Assembly: GCF_013488205.1 (NCBI RefSeq)
Contig: NZ_CP040908.1
Coordinates: forward strand, 837,501 to 901,500
Source of the DNA: Empedobacter falsenii
GTDB lineage: Bacteria; Bacteroidota; Bacteroidia; Flavobacteriales; Weeksellaceae
DNA: 64,000 nucleotides
Direction of reading: 5' to 3'
The stretch's first letter is position 1. Every line of letters starts with the position of its first letter. The position numbers and the translations under genes are program-made. Shown here piece after piece: positions 3,682 through 20,677 of this stretch. The notes beneath the pieces were generated by a model. It was not told where the DNA came from. It searched no databases and saw nothing but the letters and a program-made list of their open reading frames with translations.

Positions 3682-4506
3682 ATGAAAAAGTATAGTTTTT
3701 TAATCATCGGAAGTTTTCTTGCTTTTGCTGCAAATGCACAATTTAAAAATCAAGAAACCAAACAATTTCAAGTGAAAGGAAATTGTGCAAATGCAAAAGA
3801 ATTAATAGAAAAAGCTGGAAATCAAGCTCGAATTTCGAAAGTAGATTTTGACGCGACGACTCAAACAGCTTCAATTTCATACAATAAAGCAAAAACAAAT
3901 TCGAATGAAATCTTGAAGAATATTGCGTTAGCAGGTTTTGATAATGCTGAATATATGGCGCCTGATGAAGCTTATGCAAAATTGGAAAAAGATTGTCAAT
4001 ATTCTCGGGATAAAAAAATGTTGATGAACCATCAAGAAATGGATCATTCTACTCATAATCAAACTGAAAATTCTCAACAAAAAAATCAATTATCACAAGT
4101 TTTTGATGCTTATTTTTCATTGAAAGATGTCTTTGTAAAAGCAAATGAAAGTGAAATTTCGAAACAAATTACAGCATTTTCTCAATCACTTTCTGCTGTA
4201 GAAATGGGTAAACTTTCGCATGAATCGCATATGGTTTGGATGGAAGTTTTGAATGATTTAGAAACAACTTCGAAACAATTAGTTCAAGAAAAAAATATTG
4301 AAAAACAACGTACAACTTTTGCAAAATTGTCACAACCAATGTACAAATTAGCTCAAAAAGCAAATCTAGGATATACAGTTTATTATCAAAATTGTCCGAT
4401 GTTTAATGGCGGTTCGAATTGGTTGAGTAAAGATTCGGCTATTAAAAATCCTTTCTACGGAAATATGATGTTGACATGCGGAAGCACAGTTGAAACATTG
4501 AAATAA
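3682..4506 (+). CDS. Exported HMA-like plus DUF3347 copper-handling protein
   Basis: A 274-residue periplasmic protein. The ATG at 3682 gives a signal peptide (MKKYSFLIIGSFLAFAANA); an in-frame ATG at 3658 overlaps the regulator and would place charged residues before it. Residues 25-105 resemble an HMA domain (VKGNCANAKELIEKAG, GFDNAEYM) but with a single Cys in place of CxxC. A His/Met-rich linker follows (MLMNHQEMDHSTHN). The C-terminal half matches DUF3347, with FDAYFSLKDVFVKAN and the ending YYQNCPMFNGGSNWLS. DUF3347 proteins recur in Bacteroidota copper and mercury loci. A role in binding or passing periplasmic copper is inferred from the context and the residues. Confidence 0.78.
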   Translation: MKKYSFLIIGSFLAFAANAQFKNQETKQFQVKGNCANAKELIEKAGNQARISKVDFDATTQTASISYNKAKTNSNEILKNIALAGFDNAEYMAPDEAYAKLEKDCQYSRDKKMLMNHQEMDHSTHNQTENSQQKNQLSQVFDAYFSLKDVFVKANESEISKQITAFSQSLSAVEMGKLSHESHMVWMEVLNDLETTSKQLVQEKNIEKQRTTFAKLSQPMYKLAQKANLGYTVYYQNCPMFNGGSNWLSKDSAIKNPFYGNMMLTCGSTVETLK

Positions 4507-4521
4507 TAATTAAAAAATTGA

Positions 4522-4956
4522 ATGAAAATGAAGAATTTAAAAATAGTTTTAGGCGTTTCAATATTATGTGTTTTTGTATTAGCATCTTGTCAAAATAAAA
4601 CAGAAGAACCAGCAGTTATTGCTCTCGAAGAACAGATGTCAGATATGATGCAACCTTCGCAAACAATGGCTTACAATGTTGGAGATAAGGTTCCGAATAA
4701 GCAAGTTTGTATGGTGAACAATGCGTATATGGGCAAAGATCAGTTTGAAGTTCCTTATGACGGAAAAACGTATTATGGGTGTTGTAATATGTGTGTAGAA
4801 AGAATTCCGAATGATGAAACGGCTCGTAAAGCAACTGATCCTTTTACAGGAAAAAAGATTGATAAAGCGAATGCGTATATCGTTTTGAAAGATCAACAAG
4901 GAAATGTTGATTATTTCGAAAATGAGGAGAATTATAAGAAGTTTAGTCAATTATAA
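4522..4956 (+). CDS. Cys-rich metal-binding lipoprotein (TRASH/YHS- or NosL-like)
   Basis: A 144-residue lipoprotein with signal and lipobox VFVLASC. The mature part carries a Cys cluster, VCMVNN and YGCCNMCVERI, spaced like a TRASH/YHS metal site. It is followed by a DPFTGKKIDKANAYIVLKD segment resembling the C-terminal part of NosL-type copper proteins. It also has Met pairs near the start of the mature chain (SDMMQPSQTM). It sits between the DUF3347 protein and the multicopper oxidase with 12-15 bp gaps, so a periplasmic copper chaperone is the likely role. The start could equally be the ATG two codons later. Confidence 0.7.
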   Translation: MKMKNLKIVLGVSILCVFVLASCQNKTEEPAVIALEEQMSDMMQPSQTMAYNVGDKVPNKQVCMVNNAYMGKDQFEVPYDGKTYYGCCNMCVERIPNDETARKATDPFTGKKIDKANAYIVLKDQQGNVDYFENEENYKKFSQL

Positions 4957-4968
4957 TCAATCATTCTC

Positions 4969-12121: not shown

Positions 12122-12811
12122 ATGCATATTTTAGTAGTAGAAGATGATCAAAGAATGTCTGAATTAATTCGAAGAGGATTAGTAGAAAATGGATTCGAAG
12201 TTACTGTAGTTTATGATGGTGAAATGGCACTTAAATTAGCTCTTCGCGAAGAGTATGATTTAATTGTATCTGACATAATTTTACCTAAATTAAGTGGATT
12301 AGATTTTTGTCAAGAAATCAAAAAGAAGAAACCTTTTCTTCCTATTATTATGTTAACAGCTCTTGGAACAACAGATGATAAAGTAGAAGGATTTGATGCT
12401 GGTGCAGATGATTATATGGTGAAACCTTTTGAAATGCGAGAACTTGTTGCTAGAATAAGGGTTTTATCAAAAAGAAATTTTAATCATAATTCACAATCCT
12501 TTTTATTAAAATATGATACTTTAGAGATGAATCTTCATACTAAAATTATAAAAAGAGAAGAAAAAGAAATTGATTTAACTCCTAAAGAATTTCGACTGCT
12601 TCAATATATGTTAGAAAACAAAGAACGAGTTTTGTCTAGAAATGAAATAGCAGAAAATGTTTGGGACACACATTTTGATACAGGAACTAATTTTATTGAT
12701 GTTTATATAAATTATTTAAGAAATAAAATTGATAAACATTTTCCTACAAAACTAATTCACACAAAAACAGGTCAGGGATTTATATTTAAAAAAGATGAAA
12801 ATAAAAGTTAA
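12122..12811 (+). CDS. OmpR/CusR-type response regulator
   Basis: A 229-residue two-component regulator. The receiver domain (1-120) has the acidic pocket VVEDDQ, phosphoacceptor Asp51 in VSDIILPKLSG and the conserved Lys in MVKPFEM. The C-terminal winged helix (130-225) carries LTPKEFRLLQYMLENKERVLSRNEI, typical of OmpR/PhoB DNA binders. Its gene overlaps the kinase gene by 17 bases. Four TTCTAA repeats at 11-bp spacing lie directly upstream of the efflux operon and are the obvious candidate binding site. Genes from here to 20677 contain few CG dinucleotides and prefer codons such as TCT/TCA and AGA, compared with the TCG-rich genes before them, a hint of transfer. Confidence 0.9.
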   Translation: MHILVVEDDQRMSELIRRGLVENGFEVTVVYDGEMALKLALREEYDLIVSDIILPKLSGLDFCQEIKKKKPFLPIIMLTALGTTDDKVEGFDAGADDYMVKPFEMRELVARIRVLSKRNFNHNSQSFLLKYDTLEMNLHTKIIKREEKEIDLTPKEFRLLQYMLENKERVLSRNEIAENVWDTHFDTGTNFIDVYINYLRNKIDKHFPTKLIHTKTGQGFIFKKDENKS

Positions 12812-14162
12812 ACTGACGATTTTATTCACTCTACTTACAGCTGCAATACTTTTCTTTTTTGCTTTTATTATTTATTATTCAGCTAAAAAAGATAGAGAAA
12901 AAGAGTTTTTTGAATTATTGAAAAAAGAAGCAATTACAAAATCAAATCTTTTTCTTAAAGCTAAAGTTCCTTCAGAAGTTTTACATAATATTTATCATAA
13001 TAATAGACAAACAATCAATGAAGTAGAAGTTGCGGTTTATAATCAAAACAAAAAACTACTTTATCATGATGCTGTTGAAATAGATTTTGTAAAAGAAACT
13101 GACGAATTATTTGATGAAATACAACAAAAAGGATTTGTAATTTTTTATCAAGATAAATGGCAAGTAATTGGAATGAATTATGTTGTAGATGGCAATCATT
13201 ACATTGTAACAGCGGCCGCTTTAGACGAATATGGATACAGTAAGATGAACAATTTATTGAAAAACATCATACTGATTTATATTTTTTCTTTGCTATTAAT
13301 TATTTTGTCTGCTTTCTTTTTTACAAATAAAGCAATCAATCCAGTAAAAGAAATAACAAATAAAGCCAAACAAATTTCTGCTTCGAATTTAGATTTGAGA
13401 ATTGAATTGAAATCAAAAGGAGATGAGTTAGCAGAATTAACAACAACAATTAATCAAATGTTGCAACGATTAGAAAACTCTTTTGATACACAAAAAAACT
13501 TTGTTTCTAATATTGCGCATGAACTTCGTACACCTTTGGCGGCAATTATAACAGAGTTAGAAATGGCTTTAGATAAAGAGCATACTAACGAAGAATATCA
13601 ACAGTTAATCCAATTTGCATTGAATGATACGAAAAGAATTGTTCGTCTTTCAAATAGTTTACTTGATATGGCAAAAGCAAGTTATGATCCTTCGGAAATA
13701 AATTTTAAAACGATTCGGATTGATGAAATACTTTTAGATTCTGTTGCGCAAATTCAAAAAAGCAATAAAGAGTATAAAGTAGATTTAAATTTTATTAGAA
13801 TACCAGAAGAAGAAAACGAAGTTGCAGTTATAGGAAATGAGTATTTATTAAAGGTTGCTTTTACTAATTTAATAGAAAATGCTTGCAAATATTCAATTGA
13901 TAATAGTTGTATTGTTCAAGTTGATTTTGATGATAAAGAAGTGAAAATTAATTTTATTAATAAAGGAGATAAAATTGATCAAGAAGAATTAGCATTGATT
14001 TTTAAACCTTTTTTTAGAAGTGATAAACATAAAAATATTCAAGGACAAGGAATAGGATTACCTTTAACAAAGAAAATTGTCGATTTACATGATGCTCGTT
14101 TAGAATTATATTCCGAAGAAGGAAAAGAGACTATTTTTCAGATCGTATTGAAGAAGTCATAA
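12795..14162 (+). CDS. Sensor histidine kinase, metal-responsive type
   Basis: A 455-residue membrane kinase: transmembrane helix 1 near residues 7-28, a periplasmic sensor of about 120 residues, helix 2 near 155-175, a HAMP linker (INPVKEITNKAKQI), HisKA with His242 in NIAHELRTPLAA, and an HATPase domain with N-box NLIENACKYS and G2-type motif GQGIGLPLTKKI. The architecture equals CusS/CzcS-type kinases. The periplasmic domain shows no obvious His/Cys cluster, so the ligand is inferred from the efflux pump downstream. Its start overlaps the regulator by 17 bases, and a strong terminator follows. Confidence 0.88.
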   Translation: MKIKVKLTILFTLLTAAILFFFAFIIYYSAKKDREKEFFELLKKEAITKSNLFLKAKVPSEVLHNIYHNNRQTINEVEVAVYNQNKKLLYHDAVEIDFVKETDELFDEIQQKGFVIFYQDKWQVIGMNYVVDGNHYIVTAAALDEYGYSKMNNLLKNIILIYIFSLLLIILSAFFFTNKAINPVKEITNKAKQISASNLDLRIELKSKGDELAELTTTINQMLQRLENSFDTQKNFVSNIAHELRTPLAAIITELEMALDKEHTNEEYQQLIQFALNDTKRIVRLSNSLLDMAKASYDPSEINFKTIRIDEILLDSVAQIQKSNKEYKVDLNFIRIPEEENEVAVIGNEYLLKVAFTNLIENACKYSIDNSCIVQVDFDDKEVKINFINKGDKIDQEELALIFKPFFRSDKHKNIQGQGIGLPLTKKIVDLHDARLELYSEEGKETIFQIVLKKS

Positions 14163-14193
14163 TAAAACTTAAATCATTAAAAAAATATAATGG

Positions 14194-14220
14194 AAGCCTG
14201 CTATTTAGCAGGCTTTTTTT
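14194..14220 (+). terminator. Intrinsic terminator after the two-component genes
   Basis: A 10-base perfect stem AAGCCTGCTA (14194-14203) and TAGCAGGCTT (14206-14215), extended by a T-run to 14220. It separates the regulator pair from the efflux operon. Confidence 0.85.
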
Positions 14221-14221
14221 G

Positions 14222-14260
14222 TTCTAATAAAATTCTAATATTCTTCTAAAGGGTTTCTAA
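14222..14260 (+). promoter_or_regulatory. Four TTCTAA direct repeats at 11-bp period, candidate response-regulator operator
   Basis: Exact TTCTAA hexamers start at 14222, 14233, 14244 and 14255, one helical turn apart. The array begins right after the upstream terminator and ends about 24 bases before the -7 box at 14284, covering the -33 region. OmpR-family regulators bind tandem direct repeats with 10-11 bp spacing, so this is a likely operator for the regulator at 12122. Confidence 0.65.
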
Positions 14261-14283
14261 CAGCAGTAGCTTTTGATGTATTG

Positions 14284-14291
14284 TAGATTTG
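14284..14291 (+). promoter_or_regulatory. -7 promoter box of the metal-efflux operon
   Basis: TAGATTTG is a perfect TAnnTTTG match, placed downstream of the TTCTAA array and 119 bases before the mgtC-like start. This leaves a leader of roughly 110-115 bases that contains a ten-codon open frame and a hairpin. Confidence 0.6.
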
Positions 14292-14308
14292 CACCAGAAA
14301 AAAATATA

Positions 14309-14341
14309 ATGGAAACAGATTCCCAATTTGTCAAACAATAA
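14309..14341 (+). CDS. Possible ten-residue leader peptide upstream of the mgtC-like gene
   Basis: ATG-GAA-ACA through TAA encodes M-E-T-D-S-Q-F-V-K-Q. It begins about 18 bases after the -7 box, and its stop codon overlaps the 5' arm of the leader hairpin (14340-14348). Salmonella mgtC is known to have regulatory leader ORFs, but this peptide is not proline-rich and no sequence similarity is claimed. It may be chance. Confidence 0.25.
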   Translation: METDSQFVKQ

Positions 14342-14390
14342 ACCTAAGATTCATTTATAACTGCTTTTGAGATAATTGAAACTTAGGTTT
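14340..14390 (+). promoter_or_regulatory. Leader hairpin before the mgtC-like gene
   Basis: AAACCTAAG (14340-14348) pairs perfectly with CTTAGGTTT (14382-14390) across a 33-base loop, 20 bases before the start codon. No T-run follows, so it is not a terminator. It could control translation or mRNA stability. Confidence 0.4.
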
Positions 14391-14409
14391 GTCTTAAAAA
14401 AGGAAAAAA

Positions 14410-15108
14410 ATGAATTTAGTGAATTTTACAATGCAGCTAGGATTAGCTTTTCTATTAGGAGCTGCAATAGGTTTAGAGCGAGAATATCGCCAAAAAAGTG
14501 CTGGATTAAGAACAAATACTTTAGTATGTGTAGGTTCAGCAGCGTTTATATTAATGTCTTATTCTATCGGAGGTGATGCAGTAGGACGAATAGCTTCATA
14601 TGTTATCAGCGGAATAGGTTTTTTGGGCGCTGGAGTAATCATGAAAGATGGATTAAGTGTAAGAGGATTGAATACTGCAGCTACGATTTGGTGTTCAGCA
14701 GCAATTGGGTTATTTGTCGGTTCAGGACTTTCAATAGAAGCAGTTATACTTACTTCAATTATAATGTTAGCCCATCTATTATTAAGACCAATTAGCAATC
14801 ACATTTATCGTTATTCTTTCAAAAATAAAAACCACAAGGATACTGAATATTTATTGGTAATAAAATGTAGAAATGATGTAGAAAATCATTTGAGAGTATT
14901 ACTAATGCGATCAATAGAGAATAATGAAAATCTTATGATGAAGTCTCTTTCAAGTGATGATGATTTAATAAATGATTCTGTAATGATTTCAGCAGAAATA
15001 TCAGCTTTAAATCAACAAGATAGTCTTTTAGAAAAAATAGCAAGTCGATTAACAATTGAAAAAGATGTCCAGAAAATTCGTTGGGAAATTATAAGTAACG
15101 AAGTGTAA
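14410..15108 (+). CDS. MgtC/SapB-family membrane protein
   Basis: A 232-residue protein. Residues 1-130 are the MgtC core with four to five helices and the family motif LGAAIGLEREYRQKSAGLRTNTLVCVG, followed by GIGFLGAGVIMKDG and GLNTAATIWCSAAIG. Residues 145-230 form a soluble ACT-like C-terminal domain (EYLLVIKCRNDVENHLRVLL). MgtC proteins modulate membrane ATPase and ion homeostasis and are linked to low-Mg and metal stress. Here it heads an RND metal-efflux operon, 41 bp before the CzcB-like gene, so it probably serves metal stress. The molecular role is unknown. Confidence 0.85.
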   Translation: MNLVNFTMQLGLAFLLGAAIGLEREYRQKSAGLRTNTLVCVGSAAFILMSYSIGGDAVGRIASYVISGIGFLGAGVIMKDGLSVRGLNTAATIWCSAAIGLFVGSGLSIEAVILTSIIMLAHLLLRPISNHIYRYSFKNKNHKDTEYLLVIKCRNDVENHLRVLLMRSIENNENLMMKSLSSDDDLINDSVMISAEISALNQQDSLLEKIASRLTIEKDVQKIRWEIISNEV

Positions 15109-15149: not shown

Positions 15150-16280
15150 ATGAAAATAACAAGATTAACTCATTTTATACTGCTTTTAGTAGGAAGTGCA
15201 ATGTTTTTGACGAATAGTTGTAAAAATAAAACAGAGCAAACTGATAATCCAGATTTTTATTGGGTAAATAATGAAATAGAATTATCAGAAAATTCTCTAA
15301 TAGAATCTAAATTGAAATTAGAAACAACAAAACTTCAAACGATAGAATCGGAGTTAAGTTCGACAGGAGTTGTAAAAGCAATTCCTGAACGATTTGCTCA
15401 GGTAGCATCACCTTTTGCAGGACGCATAGTAAAATCTTTCGTCACATTGGGACAGGATGTACAAAAAGGCTCTCCCATTTTTGAAATAAAATCTTCAGAA
15501 TATTTTTCAGCTCAGCAAGAATATTTTTCAGCTCAGCAAGAGTTAAAACAAGCAGAAATGAATTTGAAACGTCAAAAAGATTTATACAATCATGCTGTAG
15601 GTGTAAAAAGAGAATTAGAGGAGGCTGAGACAGATTACAAGTTAAAGAAAATAGCAACAGATCAAACTGCTGCATCATTGAAAGTTTTTAATTCATCTTC
15701 TAGAGTAGGAATGGGGCAATCTTTAATTGTTCGGTCTCCTATTTCTGGACGAGTTGTAAGCAGTGATTTAGTTGTTGGACAATTCATAAAAGAAGATCAT
15801 GAAGCTTTAGTTACAGTAGCAGAATTATCAAAGGTATGGATTTCGGCACAAGTAAAAGAACATAATTTAGGTTTCTTAGAAGAGTTAAAACATATAACAT
15901 TTACAGTTGATGCTTTTCCATCAAAAATATTCGAAGGAAAAGTAATTAATATAGGACAATTATTAAATGAAGAAACGAGGAGTGTTGATGTGCTTATAGA
16001 AACGGATAATAATCAATTTGTTTTAAAACCAGGAATGTATGTTAACGTAACATTGAATAGTCTAGATAAAGAAGAGATAATCCTTCCTGCTAAAGCTGTT
16101 TTTCAAGAAAAAGAAAATCAATATGTTTTTGTGAAAATAGGTGATAGAAAATATCGAAAAGTAAATGTAAAAGCAATTGGAACTTCAGAAAATAACGATT
16201 TTGTTCGTGTTACAGATGGTTTAAAAGTAGGAGAAAGAGTAGTGATTGAAGGAGGTATCTTTTTAATGGGAGCAAAATAA
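15150..16280 (+). CDS. CzcB-like RND periplasmic adaptor (membrane fusion) lipoprotein
   Basis: A 376-residue adaptor with a signal and lipobox-like FLTNSC. The order is a barrel-sandwich half (VVKAIPERFAQVASPFAGRIVKSFVTLGQDVQKG), a coiled-coil hairpin at about 110-180, the second barrel half (LIVRSPISGRVVSSDLVVGQFIKE), a beta-barrel and the membrane-proximal domain ending VIEGGIFLMGAK. The hairpin contains a DNA-exact 21-bp tandem duplication (15498-15539) giving EYFSAQQ twice, one heptad each. It links the CzcA-like pump to the CzcC-like channel; the genes follow with 13 and 1 bp gaps. Confidence 0.87.
   Translation: MKITRLTHFILLLVGSAMFLTNSCKNKTEQTDNPDFYWVNNEIELSENSLIESKLKLETTKLQTIESELSSTGVVKAIPERFAQVASPFAGRIVKSFVTLGQDVQKGSPIFEIKSSEYFSAQQEYFSAQQELKQAEMNLKRQKDLYNHAVGVKRELEEAETDYKLKKIATDQTAASLKVFNSSSRVGMGQSLIVRSPISGRVVSSDLVVGQFIKEDHEALVTVAELSKVWISAQVKEHNLGFLEELKHITFTVDAFPSKIFEGKVINIGQLLNEETRSVDVLIETDNNQFVLKPGMYVNVTLNSLDKEEIILPAKAVFQEKENQYVFVKIGDRKYRKVNVKAIGTSENNDFVRVTDGLKVGERVVIEGGIFLMGAK
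15498..15539 (+). repeat. Exact 21-bp tandem duplication inside the adaptor gene
   Basis: Two identical 21-base units, 15498-15518 and 15519-15539, encode EYFSAQQ twice in the coiled-coil hairpin. The unit equals one heptad, so frame and coil register are kept. Confidence 0.85.
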
Positions 16281-16293
16281 ATAAGCTATTGAG

Positions 16294-19200
16294 ATGAATA
16301 AACTAATAGAAATGGCGATTGCCAAAAAATGGTTAATGGTAGCTTTGTTTTCTTTGGCTGCATTCTTTGGATATTATTCTTGGAAACAATTATCTATCGA
16401 AGCTTATCCTGATATCGCAGATGTAACTTCACAAGTTGTAACTCAAGTTCCTGGGTTGGCTGCGGAAGAAGTAGAACAACAAATAACAATTCCAATAGAA
16501 AGAGAGCTAAATGGTTTACCAGGTATGCATGTTATGCGTAGCAAAAGTACATTTGGATTATCTATAATTACGATTGTATTTAAAGATGGAGTAGATGATT
16601 ATTGGGCTCGTATGAGAATTCAAGAACGATTGAATGATATTGAGTTGCCGTATGGAGCTGAACCAGGATTAGATCCTTTAACATCTCCTATTGGAGAAGT
16701 ATTTCGTTATATTATTGAAAGTGACACAAAAAGTTTAAGAGAATTAACAGATTTACAACGTTTTGTTATTGTACCAAGAATTAATCAAGTTTCAGGAGTT
16801 GCAGAAGTAACAAATTTTGGAGGAATCACAACGCAATATCAAATAGAAATAGATCCAAATAAATTAACTCAGTATGATGTATCGTTAAATGATGTTGTAG
16901 AAACAATAGAAAAAAACAACATTAATGCAGGAGGAAGTACATTACCTCAAGGAGATATAGGATATGTGATTAGAGGAATAGGTCTTGTAAAAGATTTAGA
17001 AGATTTTGGTAAGATTGTTATTAAATCAGAAAAAGGTGTAACTGTTTTATTATCAGATATTGGAGAGTTAAAATATGGAAACTTAGAACGAAAAGGAATT
17101 TTAGGTTATAGCGATAAAAGCCGAAATCATAGTGACGGAATTGAAGGGATAGTTTTATTGTTAAAAGGAGAAGATACTTCTGTAGTTTTAGAAGGTATTC
17201 ATGAAGCTGTAGATGAATTGAATAATGATTTGTTGCCAAAAGATGTAAAAATACATGCATTTTTAGATCGTACAGATTTAGTCGATACAACACTTAATAC
17301 TGTTTCATACACATTAATGGAAGGTATTTGTTTAGTCGTTATTGTACTTATTGTATTTCTTGGAAGTTGGAGAGGAGCTCTTCTAGTAGCGATAACAATT
17401 CCTATTTCATTGCTTATTGCATTTATATTAATGCATTTTACATCTATTCCAGCTAATCTACTTTCGTTAGGAGCTATAGATTTCGGAATTATTGTAGATG
17501 GAGCTATTGTGATGATGGAAACTGTTTTGAAAAAAAGAGAGGAAAATCCAAAAGAAGAATTAAAGGAGAAAACTATTTCAACGGTTGCAAAGCAAGTAGC
17601 AAAACCAATATTTTTTGCAACACTAATTATTATAACAGCTTATTTACCATTGTTCGCTTTTGAAAGAGTAGAACGTAAACTTTTTACTCCGATGGCTTTT
17701 ACTGTTGGTTATGCATTATTTGGAGCTTTATCAGTTGCACTTTTATTAATCCCAGGATTAGCATTTGTAATGTATAAAAAACCAAGAAAAATTTATCATA
17801 ATAAATGGTTGGAAAAGCTGACGAAATCTTATTCAAAGGTTATCAAAAAAATAGTTGCTAAACCCAAAAAAGTTATTCTACCATTACTTCTAATTCTTGC
17901 TAGCGCGATAGTATTATCTATTTCTGTTGGAAAAGATTTTTTACCAACATTAGACGAAGGTTCTATTTGGTTACAAGTAGAATTACCTCCAGGATTATCG
18001 GTAGAGAAGTCAAAAGAAATGAGCGATGTATTGAGAGAACATACAATGAAATATGATGAAGTTACTTATGTAATGGTTCAAGCTGGTAGAAATGATGACG
18101 GAACAGATCCATGGACAGCATCTCATTTTGAAGTTTCAATAGGACTGAAACCATATAAAGAATGGCCTAGAGGAAAAACTAAGAATGATTTGATTCGAGA
18201 ATTAGAATCAGAGTATGCTAGTATGCCAGGATATACAGTTGGTTTTTCTCAACCAATGATTGATGGGGTTATGGATAAAATTTCAGGAGCACATAGTGAG
18301 TTGGCTGTAAAAATATATGGGAAAGATTTTACTGAAACACGCAAAATAACTGAGAATATCATGAAAGAATTAAAAATGGTAAAAGGTGCTGCTGATGTAT
18401 CAATAGATCAAGAACCGCCTTTACCTCAACTTCAAATTCATGCTAATCGAGATAAAATTGCACAATATGGATTGAATGTTTCTGATGTTTCAGAATTAAT
18501 AGAAGTCGCAATTGGAGGAAAAGCTATTTCTCAAATATTTTCAGATGATAGAGTATATGATTTTACTTGTAGATATAAAGAAGATAGTAGAAATACACCA
18601 GAAAAAATACGACAATTAACTTTGACAAATGTAGATGGTATAAAAATACCATTAGCGCAAGTTGCCGATGTAAAGCTAAATACAGGAGAAAGTACAATTA
18701 CGCGTGAAATGAATAAACGTCATTTGACAATAAAACTGAATTTGAGAGACCGTGATTTAAGTTCTTTCCTAAAAGAAGCTCAAAATAAAATAGAACAAAA
18801 CATTGATTATGATCATAGTCAATATCATATTAAATGGAGTGGACAGTTTGAAAATCAAGACAGAGCTTATAAAAGACTTTCAGTTATTATTCCAATTGCA
18901 ATATTAGTCATGTTTATACTTTTATATGCAGCATTCGGTAAATTGAGACAAGCTTTGCTTTTAATAGGAATTATTCCTTTGGCGATATTCGGTGGAATGT
19001 TAGCTTTAAATGTAAGAGGAATGACGTTGAATGTATCTTCAGCAGTTGGTTTTATTGCATTATTCGGAGTTGCAATTCAGAATGGAGTGATTATGATTTC
19101 TCAAATCAATTTACTGAAAAATAAAGGAATGGAACTTTCTCAAGCTGTTATAGAAGGTACAAAAAATCGTTTCAGACCTATTTTGATGACAGCCACAGTT

Positions 19201-19401
19201 GCGATTCTAGGATTATTACCAGCTTCATTAGCAACAGGAATAGGATCAGATGTTCAACGTCCATTAGCAACGGTTATCGTATACGGATTATTATTCTCAA
19301 CAATCATTACACTTTTTGCCCTTCCAGCTTTGTATTATATGATCGAAAAGAAATGGGGAAAAGATTCAGTAGAAAAATCAGTTAATCAAAAACAAGATTA
19401 A
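16294..19401 (+). CDS. CzcA-like heavy-metal RND efflux pump (divalent-cation type)
   Basis: A 1035-residue inner-membrane proton antiporter of normal HME-RND length. It has 12 helices with two large periplasmic loops. Helix 4 carries LGAIDFGIIVDGAIVMME, with Asp396, Asp402 and Glu409 in the DFG...DG...E arrangement of CzcA/CnrA pumps for Zn, Co, Cd or Ni. The CusA-type methionines for Cu(I)/Ag(I) were not seen. The ending RPILMTATVAILGLLPASLATGIGSDVQRPLATVIVYG is classic for the family. It works with the CzcB- and CzcC-like proteins encoded on either side. The precise metal cannot be told. Confidence 0.92.
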   Translation: MNKLIEMAIAKKWLMVALFSLAAFFGYYSWKQLSIEAYPDIADVTSQVVTQVPGLAAEEVEQQITIPIERELNGLPGMHVMRSKSTFGLSIITIVFKDGVDDYWARMRIQERLNDIELPYGAEPGLDPLTSPIGEVFRYIIESDTKSLRELTDLQRFVIVPRINQVSGVAEVTNFGGITTQYQIEIDPNKLTQYDVSLNDVVETIEKNNINAGGSTLPQGDIGYVIRGIGLVKDLEDFGKIVIKSEKGVTVLLSDIGELKYGNLERKGILGYSDKSRNHSDGIEGIVLLLKGEDTSVVLEGIHEAVDELNNDLLPKDVKIHAFLDRTDLVDTTLNTVSYTLMEGICLVVIVLIVFLGSWRGALLVAITIPISLLIAFILMHFTSIPANLLSLGAIDFGIIVDGAIVMMETVLKKREENPKEELKEKTISTVAKQVAKPIFFATLIIITAYLPLFAFERVERKLFTPMAFTVGYALFGALSVALLLIPGLAFVMYKKPRKIYHNKWLEKLTKSYSKVIKKIVAKPKKVILPLLLILASAIVLSISVGKDFLPTLDEGSIWLQVELPPGLSVEKSKEMSDVLREHTMKYDEVTYVMVQAGRNDDGTDPWTASHFEVSIGLKPYKEWPRGKTKNDLIRELESEYASMPGYTVGFSQPMIDGVMDKISGAHSELAVKIYGKDFTETRKITENIMKELKMVKGAADVSIDQEPPLPQLQIHANRDKIAQYGLNVSDVSELIEVAIGGKAISQIFSDDRVYDFTCRYKEDSRNTPEKIRQLTLTNVDGIKIPLAQVADVKLNTGESTITREMNKRHLTIKLNLRDRDLSSFLKEAQNKIEQNIDYDHSQYHIKWSGQFENQDRAYKRLSVIIPIAILVMFILLYAAFGKLRQALLLIGIIPLAIFGGMLALNVRGMTLNVSSAVGFIALFGVAIQNGVIMISQINLLKNKGMELSQAVIEGTKNRFRPILMTATVAILGLLPASLATGIGSDVQRPLATVIVYGLLFSTIITLFALPALYYMIEKKWGKDSVEKSVNQKQD

Positions 19402-19402
19402 A

Positions 19403-20677
19403 ATGAAAAAATATTGGTTATTAGTTGTGTGTAGTTTATTTATAGTAAATACTAAATTAATTGCTCAAACAACAAATGAAAGCGAATTAGATTATAAAAA
19501 ATTTATAGAAACAGTTCAAGCAAACAATATTTCTTATACAGCAGAGCGCTTTAATGTAGATATTGCCGAAACAGAAATTTTAAGTGCAAAAGCATTTGCG
19601 GATCCCGAACTTCAATTTGAATATTTTGATAATGGAGAAGCCAAAAGAAAAATGGGACTTGGATATTCAGCAGAAGTTGGATGGGTTTTAGAATTAGGAG
19701 GAAAAAGAAAAGCTCGAATTAATTTAGCTAAAAGTGAATTTGAATTAACGAAATTAATTCTTTTAGATTATTTCAAAAACTTGAAAGCAGACGCAACGTT
19801 AGGATTTCTTCAAACAATCTATCAGAAAGAAATGTTGAATGTAAAAGAGAATTCTTATAACATGATGAATCAGTTAGCAAATTCGGATGAAATAAGATTC
19901 AAATTAGGAGAGATTTCTGAAACTGATGCAAGACAAAGTCGATTAGAAACTCAATCATTAAAAAATGAAATAATACAAGCAGAAACAGATTTTGCTACAT
20001 CAAAAATTCGATTATCAACTTTTATGGGAATCGATCAATATGCAGATTTATTTTCTACAGTAGGAGATTTGAAAACGTTTCAACGTGATTTTGATTTAAT
20101 CAATTTGACTGAAATGGCCTTAAGTAATCGAACAGATTTATTAGTTACCTTGCAAAGTAAAGATGTTAGTCAAAGAATGATTGAGTTAGCTAAAGCAAAT
20201 CGTGCAATAGATTTGGGACTGATTTTAGGATTAGAGCATTCAACAGCTGTTAGAAATTTGATAGCAGAAACTCCTCAGTTCACACAAATTAAAGGAGGAG
20301 TAAATATTCCATTGAAATTTTCGAATAAATATAATAATGAGTTGAATGTTGCTAAAATGCAATTTAAACAAGAGGAGCTAAATTATAAACAAACAGAATT
20401 AGAGATAAAATCTCAAGTAAAAGAAGCATATGAGTTGTATGAAGGTTATAAAAAACAGTTGAAACAATTTGATATTGAAATATTAAAAAACGCGAATTTA
20501 ATATTAGAGGCTAAAAAATACAGTTACAAAAGAGGAAATTCGTCTTTGTTAGAGGTTTTAGATGCTCAACGAACTTATAATGAAATTCAAAATCAATATT
20601 TGGAAACTCTTTATAATTGTGCTTCAGGTCTTATTGATTTAGAAAGAGTAGTAGGAATTTGGGATATTGATTTTTAA
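19403..20677 (+). CDS. CzcC/TolC-like outer-membrane efflux channel
   Basis: A 424-residue outer-membrane factor with signal peptide MKKYWLLVVCSLFIVNTKLIAQ. It has two TolC repeats rich in long helices; SAKAFADPELQFEYFDNG and LGYSAEVGWVLELGGKRKARI are CzcC-like, and the second repeat ends in SYKRGNSSLLEVLDAQRTYNEIQNQYLETLYN, the standard TolC pattern. It starts 1 bp after the pump stop. It is the last gene of the island before the decayed SDR tail. Confidence 0.88.
   Translation: MKKYWLLVVCSLFIVNTKLIAQTTNESELDYKKFIETVQANNISYTAERFNVDIAETEILSAKAFADPELQFEYFDNGEAKRKMGLGYSAEVGWVLELGGKRKARINLAKSEFELTKLILLDYFKNLKADATLGFLQTIYQKEMLNVKENSYNMMNQLANSDEIRFKLGEISETDARQSRLETQSLKNEIIQAETDFATSKIRLSTFMGIDQYADLFSTVGDLKTFQRDFDLINLTEMALSNRTDLLVTLQSKDVSQRMIELAKANRAIDLGLILGLEHSTAVRNLIAETPQFTQIKGGVNIPLKFSNKYNNELNVAKMQFKQEELNYKQTELEIKSQVKEAYELYEGYKKQLKQFDIEILKNANLILEAKKYSYKRGNSSLLEVLDAQRTYNEIQNQYLETLYNCASGLIDLERVVGIWDIDF

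Follow-up and report, generated by a model that had tools for sequence, protein, structure and literature searches.

A phased four-unit TTCTAA array upstream of mgtC in Empedobacter falsenii, a predicted operator of the adjacent two-component system

The Pho, PmrA and PhoP boxes are direct-repeat operators with an 11-bp period, and the PhoP site of B. subtilis has four hexamers. The mgtC gene is linked to Mg2+. Here, an array of four TTCTAA hexamers between a two-component gene pair and an mgtC gene was investigated in a 64,000-nt stretch of the Empedobacter falsenii genome (NZ_CP040908.1, positions 837,501 to 901,500, forward strand); this whole stretch is the window, and feature coordinates refer to it. 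The array is like these boxes in the OmpR/PhoB-family regulator encoded beside it, its hexamer-like direct repeats, its 11-bp period and its position next to the polymerase site, but its word is TTCTAA and its four units are phased to the Bacteroidota TAnnTTTG box. The adjacent regulator has a receiver and a Trans_reg_C domain, and the direct repeats stand one helical turn apart, as in tandem direct-repeat operators.

R. anatipestifer is presumably of the same bacterial family, and its PhoP is taken to be of the OmpR-type class. The PhoP motif of R. anatipestifer, TTTAACA, had 583 peaks and resembled the ArcA motif; a two-component regulator is involved there and, by prediction, here, but the motif sequence differs from that of the array (PMC9603813). 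The proteobacterial metal regulators AgrR, CopR and PcoR use a 16-bp inverted repeat, and AgrR binds a 6-4-6 site, sometimes with an extra direct half-site (PMC7380067). They are likewise OmpR-family regulators with metal-resistance targets, and the AgrR site lies just upstream of promoters with no or a poor -35 element (PMC7380067); however, the E. falsenii array consists of four direct repeats and does not form a box of the CopR/PcoR/AgrR type. In E. coli, the destabilizing motif of the leader peptide MgtL is EPDP, and changes of Glu2 and Asp4 abolished its effect (PMC11282234). At low Mg2+, inefficient mgtL translation accompanies mgtA expression (PMC11552253).

In a literature search of open-access papers, made largely on titles and abstract openings and, for the longest result lists, on their top entries, neither an operator of TTCTAA units nor a leader like MgtL came up for Bacteroidota; in the available part of PMC3646045, TTCTAAT occurred only within a primer. 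The initial annotation knew of no described site of this form in Bacteroidota. This holds for TTCTAA operators within that search, but has to be qualified by the R. anatipestifer PhoP site, which is described and has another sequence.

The TTCTAA array, its promoter and its regulator

Direct reading of the sequence confirmed the four TTCTAA units of the initial annotation, at 14222–14227, 14233–14238, 14244–14249 and 14255–14260, with an exact 11-bp period. The three 5-nt spacers were unlike (TAAAA, TATTC and AGGGT); thus the array is not a copied 11-mer, and the hexamers are the kept part. The annotated order of terminator, array and perfect -7 box was also borne out: a GC stem with a T run (14196–14220) stopped 1 nt ahead of the array, and the perfect TAnnTTTG box TAGATTTG at 14284–14291 began after a gap of 23 nt. 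The features around the array were as follows.

12122–12811, + strand: response regulator gene, OmpR/PhoB family (receiver and Trans_reg_C; Pfam PF00072 and PF00486 over cut-off)
12795–14162, + strand: sensor histidine kinase gene (HAMP, HisKA and HATPase_c domains)
14196–14220, + strand: intrinsic terminator closing the regulator-kinase transcript (GCCTGC-TATTTA-GCAGGC-T7)
14222–14260, + strand: predicted operator, four TTCTAA units with an 11-bp period (from sequence, conservation and co-occurrence)
14284–14291, + strand: -7 box TAGATTTG (TAnnTTTG; from sequence; its spacing of 29 bp is shared by 98 of 125 sites)

In F. psychrophilum, the TAnnTTTG box spans -12 to -5 (PMC9723704); with the box in the same position, the array would lie at about -74 to -36. 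The predicted +1 was near 14296, and there was no TTG near -33. The terminator stem and T run were retained in all five same-genus intergenic regions read (L039–L043). A perfect 16-bp direct repeat, AAAAAATATAATGGAA, was also seen in this region, with one copy before the terminator (14180–14195) and the other over the start of the leader open reading frame (ORF) described below (14299–14314).

A two-base Markov model gave about 8e-7 expected four-unit arrays per genome, and the estimate was nearer 1e-5 when the higher hexamer frequency observed in the window was used (60 and 84 on the two strands). When the own genome was scanned with as many as 3 mismatches allowed, nothing but the two exact triples within the array matched at 0–1 mismatch; the weaker matches were rejected as noise (50 matches in all, compared with 80 for the reversed control). 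Exact TTCTAA pairs occurred nine times, three of them in the array, and the control occurred ten times, so the pair alone is not special. Of the six exact pairs outside the array, five were inspected; four lay in coding sequence and one (L006; 2297958–2297974, minus strand) was intergenic, between an EF-P-like gene and the next same-strand gene, with no TAnnTTTG within 120 bp. The remaining pair lay near 3071796. A 3-mismatch site beside a paralogous regulator at 1084724 was rejected, there being no convincing promoter or gene downstream.

The motif search proposed by the initial annotation supported the array. With the reversed triple as control, the exact triple was found in 94 of 320 family genomes (control, 3) and in 16 of 395 genomes of a phylum sample (control, 1), and the four-unit form was usual. 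In the five same-genus genomes with the same operon that were inspected (G009, G008, G002, G013 and G010), the array lay in the kinase-mgtC gap, one unit being altered in one genome. By the exact triple alone, 127 sites were collected, with identical 120-bp surroundings merged and each sequence counted once; removal of the duplicates S097 (= S114) and S098 (= S024) left 125 distinct sites. The distance from the start of the last exact unit to TAnnTTTG was 29 bp at 98 sites and 40 bp (29+11) at 17, a fixed position next to the promoter at 115 of 125; it was 39 bp at three sites, 30 bp at one and 50 bp at one, and five had no box. The control rate of TAnnTTTG, taken 200–259 bp downstream, was 1 of 7,500 positions. 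Since the sites were chosen by the triple alone, the box spacing is an independent result.

When the sites were aligned on the box, TTCTAA with at most one mismatch stood at -29 in all 82 distinct class A sites and in all 31 distinct class B sites, and at -62 in 81 and 18, respectively. No unit within one mismatch was found at -73 in either class, and at -18 there was one in class A and none in class B. Because of the choice by exact triple, those at -40 and -51 have no mismatch by construction, so that only -29, -62, -73 and -18 are informative; these counts indicate that the canonical site has four units, not three or five.

Among the 320 family genomes, a composite of three units and the box (at most 2 mismatches) was found in 137 (control, 2), and a regulator orthologue at E 1e-70 was found in 138. 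Both were present in 132 genomes, the regulator only in 6, the array only in 5 and neither in 177. Thus 132 of 138 regulator genomes had the array plus box, and 132 of 137 array genomes had the regulator. Absence of the array where the operon keeps its two-component genes had been named in advance as evidence against its role; the array largely passed this check. An alignment of 19 regulators, including two of class B, had in common the stretch FD(T/S)GTN(F/Y)IDVY(I/M)(N/A)Y, which we take to be the recognition helix.

Genes downstream of the array

The genes that follow the promoter in the window were as follows.

14410–15108, + strand: mgtC-family membrane protein gene (PF02308 and PF21770 over cut-off)
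15150–16280, + strand: czcB/cusB-like RND adaptor gene (PF16576; TIGR01730 over cut-off)
16294–19401, + strand: czcA/cusA-like heavy-metal RND pump gene (TIGR00914, 928.8 bits, cut-off 701.45)
19403–20677, + strand: outer-membrane efflux protein gene (PF02321)

Within 600 bp downstream of the 127 sites, mgtC was found at 67 and czcB at 14. At 31 sites (class B), a divergent regulator, 54–57% identical, lay behind the array. The class B arrays stand beside this divergent regulator and face another gene, which amends the initial annotation; the one copy tested of the downstream protein (442 amino acids; L048) matched no Pfam or NCBIfam family. In L048 (near 11931), L126 and other class B loci, the same array was seen between the 54–57% identical regulator and the divergent gene for the 442-amino-acid protein. 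Four sites (S097, S098, S099 and S116) had only the kinase, upstream, and three of these were truncated loci whose site or genome is already included in the counts. At the remaining 11 sites nothing was recognized within range. One of them, S120, had czcB at 641 bp; of the other ten, one lay where a contig ends, past the Mg2+ ATPase belonging to a second array, one had the look of a simple tandem repeat, and several preceded, by eye, TetR-, SulP- or outer-membrane-receptor-like genes. In L203, L205, L207, L201 and L130, arrays stood before genes that by eye resemble those for TonB receptors, SulP and TetR, with no homologue of the window regulator or pump in the stretch.

From a scan with mgtC, a capped list of the best 80 loci was taken. 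Array and gene order were analyzed in 43 of them, from named genomes (L266–L307 and L345); 14 more were checked for the TTCTAA pair and the leader only, and 23 were left out. Mismatches to the four units and the box (of 30 positions) were at most 3 in 34 of the 43 loci, 5, 6 and 9 in three, and 12–14, the background level, in six. The random-stretch control was bimodal: 29 of 860 stretches scored 0–3 and the rest 10–17. We take the 29 low-scoring stretches to be real arrays covered by accident. The regulator and kinase lay just upstream of mgtC in 33 of the 43 loci, of which 30 had at most 3 mismatches and the others 5, 6 and 9. Ten loci had no adjacent regulator-kinase pair, and six of these were at background (L299, L300, L302, L304, L305 and L306), L299 with only 894 nt of upstream sequence.

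The run regulator-kinase-mgtC-[mgtA]-czcB-czcA was found in 26 of the 43 loci, in genera including Weeksella, Chryseobacterium, Pedobacter, Myroides, Filimonas, Pseudarcicella and Thermoflexibacter. Three P-type ATPases that follow mgtC in relatives scored 1231–1274 bits to TIGR01524 (magnesium-translocating; cut-off 611), and no protein of the own genome was over this cut-off (best, 284.7 bits). The 14 further loci, mostly from Proteobacteria and Actinomycetes and including L312 (Ignavibacteriae) and L313 (Bacteroidia), had no pair at 0–1 mismatch, and within 320 nt no leader of the form M[DE]x[DEG].

Three side observations were made on these loci. L292, from a Candidatus Kapaibacterium genome and thus not from a typical member of Bacteroidota, had the complete set of array, mgtC, mgtA and czcBA. 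In L043, the mgtC of G010 (4280–4964 of the reversed locus) matched in two overlapping frames, a sequencing error or a frameshift. In paralogous regulator-kinase loci with CzcB and CzcA, TTCTAAT pairs followed the kinase in L050, L051 and L053, and weaker ones were seen by eye in L052 and L054, which suggests a wider regulator group sharing the half-site.

The leader of the mgtC transcript

Between the promoter and mgtC, two leader features were identified.

14309–14341, + strand: leader ORF of 10 codons, METDSQFVKQ (the ORF nearest to the promoter; conserved pattern M[DE]x[DG][PS])
14338–14392, + strand: predicted stem-loop of the leader RNA, which overlaps with the stop codon of the ORF (minimum free energy -17.5 kcal/mol, z -4.0; stability reached by none of 200 shuffles)

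Among array sites with TAnnTTTG and with mgtC within 500 bp, the first ORF began with M[DE]x[DG][PS] and had 9–14 codons at 64 of 66, the exceptions being S028 and S118; none of 53 other arrays was followed first by such a short ORF. In 46 distinct leader ORFs, a set chosen with that very motif, codon 2 was GAC in 23, GAT in 18, GAA in 4 and GAG in 1, and codon 4 was GAT in 41, GAC in 3 and GGT in 2, i.e., Asp in 44. Codon 5 encoded Pro in 34 and Ser in 12, including the window. The third codon positions varied, as in translated sequence. In the named genomes, residue 2 was acidic in 24 of 29 leader ORFs, e.g., MDAGP (Pseudarcicella), MDSGP and MDKPP (Pedobacter) and MENIPP (Mongoliibacter).

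The leader parallels that of E. coli and Salmonella mgtA: each is a short ORF whose residues 2 and 4 are acidic, stands ahead of a gene linked to Mg2+ and to a two-component system, and is followed by an RNA structure (PMC11282234 and PMC11552253). The leader studied here differs in that it precedes mgtC, and residue 5 is Pro in 34 of the 46 distinct ORFs and not in the window. The MgtL type is also marked by ribosome drop-off that depends on Mg2+ and by Rho control.

All eight leaders folded were stabler than their shuffle mean (z -2.5 to -4.3; window, -4.0). When 56 leaders were freely aligned, RNAalifold returned an energy of 0.00 and hence no common fold, which we think was due to gaps misplacing the pairing element. 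Pairing with the mgtC start region was then scored per sequence by best match, with swapped and shuffled controls. The 56-leader set was without S047 and non-matching leaders, and its mean own score was 18.8, compared with 15.4 for swapped and 11.5 for shuffled partners. In 50 distinct Chryseobacterium/Elizabethkingia-like leaders, a set without S126 and the leaders beginning ME (the window's among them), an upstream element paired with positions -9 to -2 relative to the start of mgtC, with a mean of 7.64 Watson-Crick pairs of 8 (own score 17.66, swapped 12.57, shuffled 9.85). Both members switched between C-G and T-A at -3, -4, -8 and -9. The stem-loop and the start-region pairing may be mutually exclusive or may form a pseudoknot.

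The proposed circuit and its alternatives

Most likely, the array serves as operator for the response regulator whose gene lies close by on its upstream side. This prediction from sequence is supported by the overlap of regulator and array (132/138 and 132/137) and by the spacing to the -7 box, in agreement with the initial annotation. The annotation had also called the array the switch of the mgtC-czcBAC-like operon. The array does sit before this operon and is phased to its promoter; however, the promoter is that of mgtC, and the first gene and the leader (with mgtC, and mgtA in relatives) point to Mg2+ rather than to efflux alone.

From the computed features (array, box phasing, regulator co-occurrence, gene order, leader conservation and predicted structure), we infer a circuit of binding, activation, signal and Mg2+ mechanism. 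The phosphorylated regulator would bind as two tandem dimers, each on two tandem half-sites, aligned on one face of the DNA at about -74 to -36. By class II activation, it would recruit RNA polymerase to a promoter where a good -7 box stands without a TTG near -33, turning on mgtC-czcB-czcA and the outer-membrane protein gene, or mgtC-mgtA-czcBA in many relatives. In a second, less certain layer, the 5' part of the transcript would encode a small acidic peptide and would be structured. If this leader acts like MgtL, low Mg2+ would make ribosomes leave it early, the RNA fold would change and the mgtC start would be freed, while full translation of the leader would keep it hidden. The kinase may respond to Mg2+ shortage, to an excess of competing divalent metals, or to both. 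The sensor-domain profile had no sequence match to a solved structure; the modeled domain (predicted local distance difference test, pLDDT, 85.8) gave weak PAS-like matches including CusS, CzcS and PhoQ (best E 0.003, none under 0.001). The window regulator scored 218 bits to TIGR01387 (heavy metal response regulator), under the cut-off of 279.2.

That the leader is a translated regulatory ORF is probable, while its role as a Mg2+ gauge is proposed tentatively, by analogy. Equally tentative is the whole analogy, by which Bacteroidota may possess the full equivalent of the PhoPQ-mgtCB/mgtA-MgtL circuit of enterobacteria: from a four-unit TTCTAA operator, a two-component regulator would drive mgtC-mgtA-czcBA, and a conserved acidic leader would gauge intracellular Mg2+ via ribosome destabilization and so switch an RNA that hides the mgtC start.

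Several observations weigh against this reading. Regarding the operator, the Fisher p of 4e-75 for the co-occurrence overstates independence, the genomes being related. Six regulator genomes were without the composite (G063, G089, G113, G132, G157 and G291): G089 and G113 had a more degenerate array, and in G291 no TTCTAA pair was seen in a stretch that was possibly too short. Five array genomes had no regulator match at E 1e-70 (G006, G090, G106, G176 and G224), the array of G090 lying on a 5.6-kb contig with a partial regulator match and G224 having two partial matches. In L266, L273, L295 and L296 the array was present without the regulator and kinase alongside, and there the regulator would act from elsewhere. 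Regarding signal and leader, the sensor fold does not discriminate Cu, Zn and Mg2+; the window peptide has E2 and D4 but no proline; residue 2 was not acidic in 5 of 29 named leader ORFs (L291, L292, L296, L298 and L303); and eight named array loci had no leader ORF. The swapped control of the 56-leader set was high, and the window's own pairing to the mgtC start was weak (score 11, against the mean of 18.8).

Instead of the adjacent regulator, a paralogue, or several regulators with cross-talk, might be the main reader of the array. In three of the five paralogous loci inspected (L050, L051 and L053, not L052 and L054) an exact TTCTAA pair comes after the kinase, class B arrays adjoin a 54–57% identical regulator, some arrays stand, by eye, before TonB receptor-, SulP- or TetR-like genes with no adjacent homologue of the window genes, and four named loci have the array without an adjacent regulator. 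However, array presence tracks the orthologue genome by genome, and all 33 named loci with the regulator-kinase pair upstream of mgtC had at most 9 of 30 mismatches (30 of them at most 3); this alternative is held to be improbable. Slightly less probable still is that the same regulator acts with opposite sign, the array being a repressor site that blocks the polymerase until the signal. The last unit, covering about -41 to -36, would suit such a blocker, but the fixed single-spacing geometry and the missing TTG near -33 fit activation, as do the position of the array and its spacing to the -7 box, and the upstream edge at about -74 would lie beyond a blocker's need. A non-regulatory repeat arising by replication slippage, DNA curvature or chance has next to no probability. 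The AT-rich genome would favor it, as would one exact array (S124, in G618) whose spacers are all the same and which resembles a simple tandem repeat; but hexamers are kept while spacers vary, and the controls and the fixed box spacing argue against it.

For the leader, the alternative is an incidental ORF, with the conservation of this stretch reflecting nothing but RNA structure of the start region. The ORF length varies from 9 to 14 codons and the leader is absent from the eight named array loci, as this would allow; but codons 2 (GAC/GAT/GAA/GAG) and 4 (GAT/GAC/GGT) are kept with variable third positions across the 46 distinct ORFs, and an incidental ORF is considered unlikely, though less so than the alternatives for the operator.

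By analogy, the operator would be of a known kind, 11-bp direct repeats, with a new word; the Mg2+ leader is the bolder and unproven part. With the array, a two-component system of Bacteroidota gains a sharply defined predicted operator together with its spacing to the promoter and its regulon; in the literature search, few mapped operators were found for Bacteroidota. If the circuit is true, Mg2+ uptake and divalent-metal efflux would be joined phylum-wide in a single regulon. Provided that the leader works in the proposed way, enterobacteria would not be alone in sensing Mg2+ through destabilization of the ribosome by a nascent peptide. Bacteroidota mRNAs are without Shine-Dalgarno sequences (PMC6847099), and the leader mechanism would then operate in bacteria whose mRNAs lack them.
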